Positions 36,081 through 41,598 of a DNA stretch of 48,218 bases are shown piece after piece. Positions within the stretch are counted from its first letter, which is position 1. Each line of letters begins with the position of its first letter. The DNA is taken from the NCBI GenBank assembly GCA_018664075.1, contig JABJOY010000015.1:1-48218 (forward strand). The letters run 5' to 3'. A model generated the notes under the pieces. That model saw nothing but the letters and a program-made list of their open reading frames with translations, was not told the origin of the DNA and did no database searches. Made by a program: the position numbers and the translations under genes. The stretch is from Porticoccaceae bacterium (GTDB lineage: Bacteria > Pseudomonadota > Gammaproteobacteria > Pseudomonadales > Porticoccaceae).

Positions 36081-36150
36081 AGCTTATGTGTGGAATTGGT
36101 AGACGCCGGGCAGGAGTCCAAGTGTCGCGGAAGTCAGTAACTAAGGTAGA
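36081..36150 (+). pseudogene. Decayed tRNA-Leu fragment
   Basis: Bases 36090-36104 are identical over 15 bases to the D-arm of the intact tRNA-Leu (36173-36187), 83 bases upstream of it, close to one tRNA length. A further AGTGTCGC resembles a leucine variable arm. The expected acceptor stem, anticodon stem and T-arm do not fold here, so this looks like a degraded tandem copy rather than a working tRNA. The boundaries are approximate. Confidence 0.4.
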
Positions 36151-36163
36151 TTTTTTGAAAAAT

Positions 36164-36248
36164 GCCCAAGTGGTGGAATTGGTAGACACGCTATCTTGAG
36201 GGGGTAGTGGCGAAAGCCGTGCCGGTTCAAGTCCGGCCTTGGGCACCA
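36164..36248 (+). tRNA. tRNA-Leu (anticodon GAG)
   Basis: An 85-base class II tRNA with encoded CCA. The acceptor stem pairs GCCCAAG with CTTGGGC. The D-arm is TGGTGGAATTGGTAGACAC. The anticodon stem is CTATC/GGTAG around a seven-base loop with GAG at 36198-36200, reading CUC/CUU. The long variable arm is typical of tRNA-Leu, and the T-arm contains GGTTCAAGTCC. It sits after secG, the conserved place. Confidence 0.95.
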
Positions 36249-36283
36249 TATCAAAGACCAGTAGCTTTTGCTGGCGAGCCAGA

Positions 36284-36307
36284 AGCCCCGTTGATCGGGG
36301 CTTTTTT
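36284..36307 (+). terminator. Rho-independent terminator after tRNA-Leu
   Basis: Stem AGCCCCG / CGGGGCT with a TTGAT loop, followed by six T. It closes the tpiA-secG-tRNA transcript 35 bases after the tRNA and isolates the dmdA-like cluster downstream. Confidence 0.9.
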
Positions 36308-36631: not shown

Positions 36632-37795
36632 ATGACGGCGATTGAAAATAAAGACCAATCTAAAGCCTTCGGCTTCGGTACACAAATCCGCAAGTCACCC
36701 TATTTTGAAGCCACGCTGCGCTGGGGTGCGGCGGGTTTTTCTGTCTACAACCATATGTACATACCCAGAGATTTTGGCGATCCTGAGCAAAATTTTTGGA
36801 ATCTGGTCAACAGCGCCACCCTGAGCGATGTTGCTGTGGAGCGGCAGGTGGAAATCACCGGGCCAGATGCGGCCAAATTTGTGCAGATGTTGACGCCCCG
36901 CAACCTGTCTAACTGTGCCGTAGGTCAGTGCAAATATGTGCTCATCACTAATGCCCAGGGTGGGATTCTCAATGATCCCATATTGCTGCGTCTGGCCGAG
37001 AATCACTTTTGGCTGTCGCTGGCAGACAGCGATATTTTGCTCTGGGCTCAGGGAGTGGCTGTAACCTCTGGAATGGATGTTGAGATCTGTGAGCCAGATG
37101 TGTCGCCACTGCAGCTGCAAGGGCCGAAGTCTGGCGAAATAATGCAAAGCCTGTTTGGTGACAAGATTAACGAGCTGCGCTATTACTGGTTTGCTGATTT
37201 TGAGCTGGATGGTATGCCTTTAATTATCTCGCGTACCGGTTGGTCCAGTGAGTTGGGTTATGAAATCTACCTTCGGGATGGCAGCCGCGGTGTTGAGCTT
37301 TGGGAGCGCCTGATGGAAGCGGGTCAGCCCTATGGATTGCAGCCCGGTCATACCTCGGCTATCCGACGTATTGAAGGTGGCATGCTGTCCTATCATGCGG
37401 ATATGGACAGCCATACAAACCCCTTTGAGCTGGGCCTGGATCGCCTTGTGGATCTGGATATGGAGGCGGACTTTATTGGTAAAGCCGCGCTGACCAAAAT
37501 TGCCGAACAGGGGATTAGCCGCAAGCAGGTGGGTATAGAGATTGGTGGTGAGCCACTGACTGGTGCCAACAATGAATTCTGGCCAATTATTGTGGGGTCT
37601 GAGCAGGTTGGTACGGTTACTTCGGCAATTTATTCGCCCCGTCTGCAAGCCAATATTGCTCTGGCTATTGTGAGTATTGACTACAGCATGGAGGGTACTG
37701 AGGCGGAGATAGTAACCCCATTTGGTCAGCGCTCTGTTAGAGTTGTACCCAAGCCTTTTTATGACCCCAAGAAGAGTTTGGCGGTTAAGGTTTAG
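36632..37795 (+). CDS. dmdA: DmdA-like dimethylsulfoniopropionate demethylase (GcvT family)
   Basis: DmdA transfers a methyl group from DMSP to tetrahydrofolate, giving methylmercaptopropionate (MMPA) and 5-methyl-THF. The 387-residue GcvT-fold protein strongly resembles, from memory, the Pelagibacter DmdA: RKSPY (20-24), YNHM (39-42), DVAVERQVEI (66-75), LNDPILLRL, ADSD (131-134), QGPKS (163-167), SRTGWSSELGYE (200-211) and NPFELGLD (263-270). True glycine-cleavage T-proteins have a different loop (GYTGE) at the GWS position. Non-demethylating relatives exist in marine bacteria, so activity is not proven. It opens a plus-strand cluster with an acyl-CoA ligase of the kind needed for the next step. 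Confidence 0.78.
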   Translation: MTAIENKDQSKAFGFGTQIRKSPYFEATLRWGAAGFSVYNHMYIPRDFGDPEQNFWNLVNSATLSDVAVERQVEITGPDAAKFVQMLTPRNLSNCAVGQCKYVLITNAQGGILNDPILLRLAENHFWLSLADSDILLWAQGVAVTSGMDVEICEPDVSPLQLQGPKSGEIMQSLFGDKINELRYYWFADFELDGMPLIISRTGWSSELGYEIYLRDGSRGVELWERLMEAGQPYGLQPGHTSAIRRIEGGMLSYHADMDSHTNPFELGLDRLVDLDMEADFIGKAALTKIAEQGISRKQVGIEIGGEPLTGANNEFWPIIVGSEQVGTVTSAIYSPRLQANIALAIVSIDYSMEGTEAEIVTPFGQRSVRVVPKPFYDPKKSLAVKV

Positions 37796-37844
37796 CCGTG
37801 CTTTAACTATGGTTTATCCATAAAAATAAATAGCAGGTATTACT

Positions 37845-38282
37845 ATTAATCACGACAGTTATCCAGACGCCTATCTCAGGCAGATACTCACCGAGGTCAA
37901 AAGCATAGCTCTGGTGGGTGCCAGCCCGCGCCCGGAACGTGATAGCTATCTATGTATGCAAGCCCTGCTCGATGCGGGTTACAGGGTGATACCTGTTAAC
38001 CCAATTGAGGCTGGCAATAGCATTCTCGGTCAACATTGCTATGAGTCTCTGGCAGCTATAGGGCAACCGGTAGATATGGTCGACATCTTTCGATCCCCAG
38101 AGGCGGCTCTGGGTGTTACCCTGGAAGCTATTGCCATTGGTGCCGATGTGGTTTGGATGCAGCTGGATATTATCAACCATCAGGCTGCTGAGCTGGCTGA
38201 GGCCGCTGGTCTTAAAGTTGTGATGGACCGCTGTCCAAAGTTAGAATTGGAAAAGCCCTATTGGGTTGCTGGCGAGGGGTAG
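37845..38282 (+). CDS. YccU-type CoA-binding protein, probable ATT start
   Basis: A single CoA-binding Rossmann domain of the YccU family, probably 145 residues. The reading frame encodes NHDSYPDAYLRQILTEVKSI then ALVGASPRPERDSY, and later VIPVNPIEAG, DMVDIFRSPEA, WMQLDIIN and VVMDRCP, all typical. No ATG, GTG or TTG occurs before the first beta-strand: the frame opens after a TAA at 37827 with only ATA and ATT candidates, and AGG at 37835-37837 lies about 7 bases before the ATT at 37845. The first standard start, GTG at 37914, would cut off the first strand of the fold. The biochemical role of the family is unknown. It lies between the demethylase and the crotonase. Confidence 0.75.
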   Translation: MNHDSYPDAYLRQILTEVKSIALVGASPRPERDSYLCMQALLDAGYRVIPVNPIEAGNSILGQHCYESLAAIGQPVDMVDIFRSPEAALGVTLEAIAIGADVVWMQLDIINHQAAELAEAAGLKVVMDRCPKLELEKPYWVAGEG

Positions 38283-38351
38283 TTGTTAACCGGTATACAA
38301 ATTAGGCCAGCGGACTAGAATAAGAATATTAAGACCATGGAGGTACTACAA

Positions 38352-39158
38352 ATGGTAGATCAGGCAAACAGCGATATTCTACTAATGAAAGTGCAAGATG
38401 GGATTCTGCGGCTTACGCTTAACGATCAAAAACGCCGCAATGCATTATCTGAAACCATGCTGATAAAGCTGTCTGAGGTGCTTACCAATGCTGCTCTGGA
38501 CCCCTCAGTAAGGGTGATTGTTATTGCTGCCTTTGGCCCCGCATTCTGCGCAGGCCATGATCTCAAGGAGATAACTGCAGCCCGCGCCGATGAGAATGAG
38601 GGGCAGGCTTACTTTGAGCAGCTGTTTGATACCTGTGCTTCGGTTATGCAGCTGATTGTTAATAATCCCAAGCCGGTAATTGCTGAAGTGGCAGGTGTTG
38701 CCACGGCGGCGGGCTGCCAGTTGGTGGCCAGCTGTGATCTGGCAATAGCCGCAGATTCAGCTCTGTTTGCCACTCCCGGGGTTAATATTGGCCTTTTCTG
38801 CTCAACGCCCATGGTGGCTCTGTCGCGCAATCTGTCTAACAAACACGCGATGGAAATGTTGCTGACTGGCGAGATGATCAGTGCCGAGCGAGCGGAGCAG
38901 GTCGGCTTGATCAACCGTTACCTGAGTGCAGAGACATTAACCGAGGAAACCATGGCCATGGCGGCTAAAATCGCCAGCAAGTCGACCATGACAGTGGCTA
39001 TGGGCAAGCGGGCATTCTATGAGCAGGCAGAAATGCCCCTTGTTGAAGCCTATGCTTACAGTTCTAAGGTGATGGTCGACAATATGTTAAAACATGACGC
39101 GAAAGAAGGTATTGGTGCCTTTATTGAAAAGCGTGCTCCCGATTGGCAGGATAAATAA
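38352..39158 (+). CDS. ECHDC3-like crotonase-family protein lacking both catalytic glutamates
   Basis: A 268-residue enoyl-CoA hydratase/isomerase-fold protein. The start at 38352 is chosen because GGAGGT (38339-38344) lies 7 bases before it; the ATG at 38337 has no such site. The oxyanion-hole region FGPAFCAGHDLKE (61-73) is intact. At the positions of the two catalytic glutamates of classical hydratases it has Gln123 (AAGCQLVASCDLA) and Gly143 (FATPGVNIGLFCSTP). The same features mark animal ECHDC3, whose reaction is unclear. Canonical DmdD keeps both glutamates, so this is probably not a standard methylthioacryloyl-CoA hydratase despite its place beside dmdA- and dmdB-like genes. Confidence 0.85.
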   Translation: MVDQANSDILLMKVQDGILRLTLNDQKRRNALSETMLIKLSEVLTNAALDPSVRVIVIAAFGPAFCAGHDLKEITAARADENEGQAYFEQLFDTCASVMQLIVNNPKPVIAEVAGVATAAGCQLVASCDLAIAADSALFATPGVNIGLFCSTPMVALSRNLSNKHAMEMLLTGEMISAERAEQVGLINRYLSAETLTEETMAMAAKIASKSTMTVAMGKRAFYEQAEMPLVEAYAYSSKVMVDNMLKHDAKEGIGAFIEKRAPDWQDK

Positions 39159-39166
39159 TCCGGCCC

Positions 39167-40810
39167 ATGTCTGACATCTATGATCGCGATCTCGACCAGA
39201 ATCAGGCTAATCACCAGCCCCTGACACCGCTGGCTTTTCTCGAGCGAGCGGCCACCGTATTCCCCGACCATATTGCTGTTGTTCACGGCAGTATGCAGAT
39301 CAGCTACAGGGACTTCTACCGTCGCTGCCGCAAGTTTGCCTCGGTATTGGCTGGGCGCGGCATTGGTCGTGGCGATACGGTGTCGGTAATGTTGGCCAAT
39401 ACCCCCGCCATGCTCGAAGCCCATTATGCGGTACCCATGTGTGGCGCGGTGCTGCACTCTATGAATACCAGACTGGATGCCGGAGTTATCGCTTTCCAGC
39501 TGGACCATGCGGAAGCGCAGGTATTAATTACTGACACTGCCTTCTCTGGGACTATCTCCTCCGCTCTTGATTTGGCGACCCTGAAGCCTCTGGTGATCGA
39601 TTATATGGATCCGGTTTTCCCGCAACCTGGGGATAGGCTGGGAAGTGATGACTACGAAACATTATTGCAATCTGGCGACGGCGATTTTGCCTGGTTGATG
39701 CCTGAAAATGAATGGGATGCCATCACGGTTAACTACACCTCAGGCACCACTGGTGACCCCAAAGGTGTGGTTTATCACCATCGTGGTGCCTGTCTGCTGG
39801 CCCAGGGTAATGCGATTACGGCTTCCATGCCCAAGCATGCGGTGTATTTGTGGACATTGCCCATGTTCCACTGCAACGGCTGGTGTTTCCCTTGGACTAT
39901 GTCTGCGGTCACAGGCACCCATATCTGCCTGCGCGAGGTTCGCGCCGACGCGATCTGGGCTGCTCTGGCAGATTATCAGGTCACTCACCTATGTGGCGCG
40001 CCAGTCGTCATGTCCACCATTCTAGCCGCACCGGCGTCACAGAAGCGCGATCTGACAAAGCCGGTAGAATTTTTTACCGCCGCTGCGCCGCCGCCAGAAT
40101 CAGTGTTATCTGAAATGCGTGACGCGGGCTTTAATGTGACCCACCTGTATGGGTTAACTGAAGTCTATGGCCCTGCTGTGGTCAATGACTGGCATGAAGA
40201 ATGGAATCAATTGTCCGCAGAAGAGCAGGCCGCATTGAAGGCACGGCAGGGGGTGCGTTACCATGCCTTGGAAGAACTCGATGTACTTGATCCTGAAACC
40301 ATGAAGCCGGTGCCCAGAGATGGTGAAACTTTGGGTGAAGTGATGTTTCGCGGCAATGTGGTGATGAAAGGCTATTTAAAGAACAAGCAGGCAACTGATG
40401 ACGCCTTGGCCGGTGGCTGGTTTCACTCCGGCGATCTTGCTGTGGTCTATGCCGATGGCTATATCCAGTTAAAAGACCGCTCTAAGGATATTATTATTTC
40501 CGGGGGTGAGAATATTTCATCGATTGAAATCGAGGAGGTGTTGCACAAGCACCCACAGGTCACTGCAGCCGCAGTTGTTGCCATGCCCGACGAAAAATGG
40601 GGTGAGACGCCCTGTGCCTTTGTCGAGTTGGTAGACGATGGGTCGGTTTCATCCGCTGATCTCGTCGATTGGTGCAGGCAGCATATGGCCGGGTTTAAGG
40701 TGCCCCGCCATATTGTCTTTGAGGAGATTGTGAAGACCTCTACAGGCAAGGTGCAGAAATTTATATTGCGCCAGCAAGCGGAAAAGCTGGCCAGGGAGCA
40801 AGAGGGTTGA
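39167..40810 (+). CDS. dmdB: DmdB-like acyl-CoA ligase (probable MMPA-CoA ligase)
   Basis: An ANL-superfamily AMP-forming acyl-CoA synthetase of 547 residues. Motifs are the phosphate loop TSGTTGDPKG (191-200) followed by VVYHHRGACL, PMFHCNGWCFPW near 232-243, YGLTEVYGP (328-335), GWFHSGD with KDRSKDIIISGGENIS (436-451), and the C-terminal catalytic Lys528 in KTSTGKVQKF. Length and the YHHRGA and PMFHCNGW segments fit the medium-chain/DmdB group. With a dmdA-like gene in the cluster, methylmercaptopropionate-CoA ligase is the likeliest role, though such enzymes accept other short and medium acids. It lies 8 bases after the crotonase, and its TGA overlaps the djlA TTG. Confidence 0.75.
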   Translation: MSDIYDRDLDQNQANHQPLTPLAFLERAATVFPDHIAVVHGSMQISYRDFYRRCRKFASVLAGRGIGRGDTVSVMLANTPAMLEAHYAVPMCGAVLHSMNTRLDAGVIAFQLDHAEAQVLITDTAFSGTISSALDLATLKPLVIDYMDPVFPQPGDRLGSDDYETLLQSGDGDFAWLMPENEWDAITVNYTSGTTGDPKGVVYHHRGACLLAQGNAITASMPKHAVYLWTLPMFHCNGWCFPWTMSAVTGTHICLREVRADAIWAALADYQVTHLCGAPVVMSTILAAPASQKRDLTKPVEFFTAAAPPPESVLSEMRDAGFNVTHLYGLTEVYGPAVVNDWHEEWNQLSAEEQAALKARQGVRYHALEELDVLDPETMKPVPRDGETLGEVMFRGNVVMKGYLKNKQATDDALAGGWFHSGDLAVVYADGYIQLKDRSKDIIISGGENISSIEIEEVLHKHPQVTAAAVVAMPDEKWGETPCAFVELVDDGSVSSADLVDWCRQHMAGFKVPRHIVFEEIVKTSTGKVQKFILRQQAEKLAREQEG

Positions 40811-41598
40811 GCACAGGAAAAATTATTGGCGGGCTGTTCGGGTATTTTGCCGGCGGTGTTTTCACCGCTCTTTTGGGGGTTTTTATCGGCCACCAATTTG
40901 ATCGGGGTCTGGGTGGCTTTTTAAACCCAATGTCCAGAGAAGAGCAGGAGCGTGTTCGTACCAGTTATTTTGAGACATTGTTCAGCTTGCTTGGCCATTT
41001 GGCCAAATCCGATGGTCGTATATCCAAGGTGGAGATTGCCCAGGCCGAAGGGCTGATGGATAATATGGGTCTGGATACCAGTCATCGCCGCGCTGCTATT
41101 GATCTGTTTAAACAGGGCAGCAATGCCGATTTTTCCGTTGACCGGACCATGGCAGCCTTTATTGCTGTCAGTGGTCGGCACAACAACCTCAAGCGATCTC
41201 TGCTCAATTACTTGATTGCCCTGGCTATGGCCGACGGCGAGCTCCATGGAGCTGAGCAGTCGGTGCTTAAAACTGTCGCAAAGCATCTAGGTTTCTCGGC
41301 AGCACTATTTGAGAAGTTGATTGAGATGGTCAAGGCCCAGTACCAGTTCCGTGGCTCTGGTTATCAATCTCAGGGGTCAGATACGCAGAGTCAGTTGAGT
41401 GCCGCCTACACCGCTCTTGGTGTTGAGGCATCAAATACGGATGCCCAGATCAAGAAAGCCTATCGCAAACTGATCAGTGAAAATCATCCGGATAAGTTAA
41501 TTGGTCAGGGTATGCCCGAGGATATGGTCAAGTTAGCTACTGAGCGCACCCAGGAAATTCAAACAGCCTACGAATTTATTGTTGCCCAACGTAAATAA
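40807..41598 (+). CDS. djlA: Membrane-anchored DnaJ-like co-chaperone DjlA
   Basis: DjlA is an inner-membrane J-domain protein that stimulates DnaK and can trigger envelope-stress signalling. The 263-residue protein has the glycine-rich N-terminal membrane segment (GGLFGYFAGGVFTALLGVFIGHQFDRGLG, split at about 8-36), a TerB-like helical domain (about 55-180) and a C-terminal J domain with HPD at 227-229 followed by KLIGQGMPEDM. The TTG start overlaps the ligase stop (TTGA), which implies translational coupling. In Pseudomonas djlA lies elsewhere, so it belongs to the inserted segment here. Confidence 0.9.
   Translation: MSTGKIIGGLFGYFAGGVFTALLGVFIGHQFDRGLGGFLNPMSREEQERVRTSYFETLFSLLGHLAKSDGRISKVEIAQAEGLMDNMGLDTSHRRAAIDLFKQGSNADFSVDRTMAAFIAVSGRHNNLKRSLLNYLIALAMADGELHGAEQSVLKTVAKHLGFSAALFEKLIEMVKAQYQFRGSGYQSQGSDTQSQLSAAYTALGVEASNTDAQIKKAYRKLISENHPDKLIGQGMPEDMVKLATERTQEIQTAYEFIVAQRK

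Follow-up and report, generated by a model that had tools for sequence, protein, structure and literature searches.

Demethylation of dimethylsulfoniopropionate (DMSP) sets the share of algal sulfur that becomes methanethiol (MeSH) as against the climate-active gas dimethyl sulfide. The closest described system to the one considered here is that of the SAR92 bacteria, for which a gene cluster was given the order dmdA-acuH-dmdB-dmdC and the dmdA genes of strains HTCC2207, H921 and H231 were tested (PMC10746254). We analyzed a 48,218-nucleotide stretch of contig JABJOY010000015.1 (the window) from a Porticoccaceae (SAR92-like) genome, in which an earlier note had pointed to four genes in a row on one strand with short gaps, encoding a DmdA-like demethylase, a coenzyme A (CoA)-binding protein, a crotonase and a DmdB-like ligase. 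All four are real and consecutive open reading frames (ORFs) on the + strand (36632-40810), and the window is a member of the recently published cluster: the order of dmdA, crotonase and ligase is shared with HTCC2207, H921 and H231, whose DmdA proteins are 74–89% identical to that of the window and whose loci contain a CoA-binding gene as well. Because that study described the SAR92 dmdA cluster and tested its dmdA genes, the main finding is not new; the term ‘CoA-binding’ has no occurrence in its main text.

The closest DmdA relatives of the window protein are those of Porticoccaceae and SAR92 (89% identity to H231, 74% to H921 and HTCC2207; loci L010, L021 and L026). In a Ruegeria pomeroyi dmdA mutant, the dmdA genes of H231, H921 and HTCC2207 brought MeSH back to 37.2, 34.3 and 53.8% of wild type; the three strains can use DMSP as sole sulfur source, a SAR92 strain without dmdA showed no such growth, SAR92 dmdA is DMSP-induced, and among SAR92 strains themselves MeSH from DMSP was detectable only with HTCC2207 (PMC10746254). 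For phylogeny, 81 of 82 family rows were aligned (one was short), and a midpoint-rooted tree of 55 rows was built from 32 of these and 23 others, with long branches flagged by the program. The window protein falls in one clade with the HTCC2207, H921 and H231 proteins, and its family forms one side of a branch with support of 100/97. All 81 rows of the family carry Trp, Glu and Tyr, respectively, in the columns aligned with SAR11 W197, E204 and Y206. The canonical DmdAs of five Rhodobacterales, presumably of the SPO1913 type, and the SAR11 DmdA (PDB 3tfh) share the GcvT-type fold family with the window protein, as well as Glu and Tyr at the second and third columns; GcvT of the window's genome has Tyr, Glu and Ser. 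A plain GcvT assignment was rejected, as the window protein is 27% identical to a GcvT of the same genome, and so was the view of it as an untested outlier, given that its homologues have been tested experimentally (PMC10746254). The protein's predicted role in DMSP demethylation is thus well supported by its grouping with three working enzymes, and the earlier note's identification of a DmdA-like demethylase gains strong support.

Downstream of dmdA, the published reading takes the crotonase to be AcuH, a methylthioacryloyl-CoA hydratase, and the ligase to be DmdB, so that the cluster together with DmdC would constitute the ordinary demethylation pathway. We regard this as unlikely, though not strongly so. 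The crotonase passes the ECHDC3/PRK08139 model (NF006008), and alignment with RdAcuH (PDB 5xzd) puts Gln and Gly at Glu112 and Glu132; numbered on the ORF that begins at 38337, the two replacing residues are Gln128 and Gly148. The protein therefore belongs to the crotonase family like AcuH and DmdD, but without their catalytic glutamates, as the earlier note had sensed in setting it apart from the DmdD type. An alanine mutant of either Glu is inactive in RdAcuH (PMC5651017); the equivalents in DmdD are Glu121 and Glu141, and the E141A mutant still hydrates weakly (PMC3660561). Among the 59 crotonases of the window and the loci compared with it (some of them incomplete), the pair is Gln/Gly in 57, Gln/Arg in one and Ala/Gly in one, with Glu at neither column, and in the 53 full-length members left by a length filter Cys127, Gln128 and Cys155 are each kept in at least 97%. 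By comparison, both Glu are kept in five of 18 further crotonase stretches (all eight of those in the window's genome and 10 of 13 from HTCC2207), namely L114 and L117 in the window's genome and L125, L129 and L130 in HTCC2207. Scores give the AcuH assignment some purchase, since NF004517 scores the cluster crotonase highest in the window's genome (151 bits) and in HTCC2207 (144.6 bits), but the cutoff of 396 bits is reached by no protein in four genomes. Human ECHDC3 (PDB 2vx2) and 3myb, for which we know of no link to DMSP, have the same Gln/Gly pair and share the FCSTP motif with the cluster crotonase. A literature search for ECHDC3 as a crotonase together with catalysis found nothing, and among the matches listed by a looser search none was titled on its enzymology.

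The ligase, called DmdB-like in the earlier note, belongs to the acyl-CoA synthetase superfamily together with DmdB (PDB 6ihk and 6ijb, which we take to be DmdB). With the DmdB model NF005426 it scores 290.6 bits, far below the cutoff of 822, and it falls in the PRK08162 subfamily instead. A much closer relative lies away from the cluster in the same genome (G000:C90, 783 bits versus 290; its match span counts one TAA, as in H231), and the best scores elsewhere are 778 bits in HTCC2207, 788 in H921, 772 in H231, 818 in Ruegeria profundi and 315 in Leisingera. DmdC, which the earlier note had reported missing, is indeed missing at the locus but probably not from the genome. We take PF12806 to be the marker of DmdC-type dehydrogenases: none of this type lies beside dmdA in the window, three are encoded outside the locus, and PF12806 genes occur in all seven genomes tested. 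NCBIfam gives no DmdC name to the three; loss of DmdC from the genome was considered and, with these candidates present, not adopted. The published order places dmdC within the cluster, but when six PF12806 proteins were used as queries, a search that shorter acyl-CoA dehydrogenases could escape, only one of 79 dmdA loci (L048) had a relative in its examined flanks, and those of HTCC2207, H231 and H921 had none. These 79 loci are the closest among the matches listed and hence a biased sample. As far as sequence can tell, the name AcuH is unsupported by residues or scores, and the name DmdB by model scores.

Our preferred explanation, held with moderate confidence, is a SAR92-type DMSP demethylation operon whose ECHDC3-type crotonase lacks the two-Glu mechanism, with DmdC candidates and a closer DmdB relative encoded elsewhere. 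DmdA would demethylate DMSP as in the SAR92 type, and the adjacent PRK08162 ligase would most likely make the CoA ester of the product, methylmercaptopropionate (MMPA), with the DmdC candidates and the second, closer DmdB relative supplied by genes at other sites. The crotonase, unable to hydrate by way of two glutamates as AcuH and DmdD do, would handle a pathway CoA ester by other chemistry, and the CoA-binding protein, whose place OsmC takes in other lineages, may be a housekeeping partner for CoA or thiols. Hydration of methylthioacryloyl-CoA would probably fall to another crotonase, for example one of the two domains that keep both Glu (L114, L117). The variant route or CoA-handling role suggested by the earlier note is possible.

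Several observations weigh against this explanation. The genes named acuH and dmdB are DMSP-induced and the published cluster order matches that of the window, which fits direct roles (PMC10746254). G000:C90, the closer DmdB relative, also falls short of the DmdB cutoff, as do the best matches of HTCC2207, H921, H231 and Ruegeria profundi. In the tree, the five canonical Rhodobacterales DmdAs (38–42% identical to the window protein) and SAR11 DmdA form a separate group (95/86), which also contains four unassigned rows from the window's order, and the SAR92 DmdA proteins were placed peripheral to DmdA clades A–E (PMC10746254). The window protein also misses the cutoff of the NF009133 DmdA model (410 bits), but so do the tested enzymes of HTCC2207 (378.5 bits), H231 (373.4) and H921 (372.6), meaning that this cutoff excludes working enzymes and is no definition of activity. 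Placement among DmdA clades, which the earlier note had proposed as a check, thus cuts both ways: the protein groups apart from the canonical DmdAs, yet its SAR92 homologues work. The Trp at the W197 column is not diagnostic of DmdA, because four of the five canonical proteins have Tyr there and one has Trp, followed by Glu and Tyr in each; a key Trp for DMSP was reported as W171 (PMC7487153), which we infer to be SAR11 W197. The CoA-binding gene adjoins the crotonase gene in three of 12 genomes having both, two of which (G149 and G120) have no dmdA match, so that the link between these two genes is not specific to DMSP. Finally, the host genome (2.06 Mb) is 92.8% complete, making absences from it weak evidence.

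The wider distribution of the window-type DmdA bears on a second alternative, in which the enzyme would act chiefly on another methylated sulfonium or betaine and take DMSP as a side substrate. The DmdA model was run against 13 genomes, 12 of them chosen for carrying a window-type locus. The window-type protein was found in all 13 and stood beside a canonical DmdA above the cutoff in five, each a member of the Rhodobacterales (Ruegeria profundi, Leisingera, Phaeobacter, Ruegeria marina and Roseovarius litoreus); the last of the six Rhodobacterales genomes tested, that of Thalassococcus halodurans, encodes just the window type. Coexistence of the two types would suit a different substrate, as would a complementation of just 34–54% of wild-type MeSH, but use of DMSP as sole sulfur source by the three SAR92 strains with dmdA and not by the strain without it, along with DMSP induction of dmdA, makes this alternative improbable (PMC10746254). 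The available text of a paper on Phaeobacter DmdA (PMC12366255) has no occurrence of ‘DmdA-like’, ‘paralog’ or ‘OsmC’. Across 145 genomes of the window's order, a DmdA match at 1e-60 was found in 15, with at least 73% identity in three (G000, G107 and G024). A DmdC-independent route, with MMPA-CoA formed by the ligase and methanethiol then eliminated from it by the crotonase to leave acryloyl-CoA, would agree with the near-absence of PF12806 genes around the cluster and with a crotonase that keeps its two Cys and Gln128 but not the hydratase residues, yet there is no evidence for such chemistry, PF12806 genes occur in every genome tested, and the Gln/Gly pair and Cys are not special to the pathway, human ECHDC3 having both, and we consider it very improbable.

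The SAR92-type operon with its ECHDC3-type crotonase that we prefer recurs in part well beyond the window. Crotonase and ligase both lie downstream of dmdA in 51 of the 79 loci, a grouping beyond chance; seven have one of the two and 21 neither, three of the latter having less than 3 kb of downstream sequence. All four genes, whose co-occurrence the earlier note had proposed to survey, are found together in 15 of the 79, where the CoA-binding gene lies 3′ of dmdA; one of these loci is titled Cellvibrionales and the remaining 14 Porticoccaceae, SAR92 or HTCC2207. The more widely conserved set is dmdA with crotonase and ligase, often with OsmC replacing the CoA-binding gene. OsmC is downstream of dmdA in 39 loci and accompanies the CoA-binding gene in none of the 79, and of the 39 loci with OsmC, 36 also have an Lrp/AsnC regulator gene, as against none of the 15 with the CoA-binding gene (domains were checked in one protein each). 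A literature search for DMSP with OsmC and dmdA returned only a study of SAR11 under sulfur limitation, whose available text groups osmC with bhmT and ordL. Genes for purU, folD or an MTHFR-like protein occur in the examined flanks of seven of the 79 loci and in G107, and all three accompany dmdA in four Oceanospirillaceae loci (L044, L047, L056 and L058), which fits disposal of 5-methyl-tetrahydrofolate. The FolD and formyl-transferase domains are confirmed by Pfam; the MTHFR-like protein has a weak NCBIfam MTHFR score (19.9 bits, cutoff 293.7) and no Pfam match. Among the 145 genomes, in which adjacency was read by eye, 14 have relatives of both crotonase and ligase, and in three of these the two genes are neighbors: the window, G024 (together with dmdA) and G033, where the pair lies with purU and OsmC, about 112 kb from a DmdA-like match of 44% identity.

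It is tempting to see here a second, widespread marine DMSP demethylation module, made of a distinct DmdA clade, an ECHDC3-type crotonase and a PRK08162 ligase with a CoA-binding protein or OsmC as accessory, and with MMPA-CoA chemistry unlike that of DmdB-DmdC-DmdD/AcuH. We think this generalization unlikely; if true, it would place ECHDC3 proteins, the human one among them, in a metabolic context open to testing. Surveys relying on NF009133 would undercount demethylation, because the window's DmdA clade scores below its cutoff. The published SAR92 route past MMPA needs testing, because its downstream steps carry enzyme names that the catalytic residues or model scores do not bear out.

The features of the locus are collected in Table 1. 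The gap from the dmdA stop to the next open frame is 34 bp, and the listed gaps further on are 54 and 8 bp. The listed CoA-binding ORF, from GTG 37914, is too short, because homology extends upstream to about 37839; the homologous 5′ end (37830-37914) has no ATG, GTG or TTG, starts vary among relatives, and the start may be an ATT at 37839 or 37845. This protein, presumably YccU-like, was correctly recognized as CoA-binding in the earlier note (Table 1). The crotonase start is read as ATG 38352 and not the listed 38337, because a GGAGG overlies the upstream ATG. The four genes are flanked by tRNA-Leu on one side and tRNA-Met on the other, and the DjlA-like gene is thought to be a genomic neighbor and not part of the pathway. 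The hairpin after tRNA-Leu hints that dmdA may have its own promoter; terminator-like sites are near background (7 observed versus 5.7 in shuffles), which makes the hairpin weak evidence.

Table 1. Features of the dmdA locus in the window and the basis of each assignment.
Feature	Position	Strand	Basis or remark
tRNA-Leu(GAG)	36164..36248	+	ARAGORN; upstream boundary
Terminator-like hairpin	36281..36305	+	Consensus match alone; between tRNA-Leu and dmdA
DmdA of SAR92-type clade (DMSP demethylase), 387 aa	36632..37795	+	PF01571 + PF08669; NF009133 378.6 bits
CoA_binding_2 protein	37839..38282	+	PF13380 128.3 bits (gathering score 22.8); start uncertain
ECHDC3/PRK08139-type crotonase	38352..39158	+	NF006008 397.7 bits (cutoff 313)
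PRK08162-subfamily acyl-CoA synthetase, candidate MMPA-CoA ligase	39167..40810	+	NF006020 896.5 bits (cutoff 677)
DjlA-like co-chaperone	40807..41598	+	NF006948 290.8 bits (cutoff 162); overlaps ligase gene

The window's genome also contains a frame of 877 aa that matches CoA-transferase III twice and resembles frames of 875–879 aa in the three SAR92 strains, so that DddD is probably also encoded. The SBP56 methanethiol oxidase was found in none of these four genomes and in one of six overall, and a link to it was not adopted. Just upstream of the real tRNA-Leu, the stretch 36090-36160 resembles the 5′ half of a tRNA-Leu; it draws no ARAGORN call and may be the remnant of a duplicated tRNA.

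Copy number and context of dmdA vary among the loci. Ruegeria marina (L022, L023 and L024) carries several near-identical dmdA clusters on different contigs, with four dmdA matches of equal score, and two Marinobacterium genomes have paired copies of window-type dmdA about 1.7 and 2.8 kb apart (L044, 10001-13975; L058, 10001-15023), set among purU, MTHFR-like and folD genes. In a metagenome-assembled genome labeled Alphaproteobacteria (L019, 6963-10692), dmdA nests among SAR92 proteins and lacks the CoA-binding gene; transfer or misbinning is possible. A dihydrolipoyl dehydrogenase-like gene adjoins the crotonase in L136 (8132-9523, by resemblance) and the OsmC-crotonase-ligase set in L137 (1570-3072, by NCBIfam match), and its product is a possible reductase for OsmC. 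A crotonase relative of 66% identity (L134, 5361-6158) occurs in a genome without a dmdA match, beside genes that we take to be LamB/YcsF-like and 5-oxoprolinase-like.

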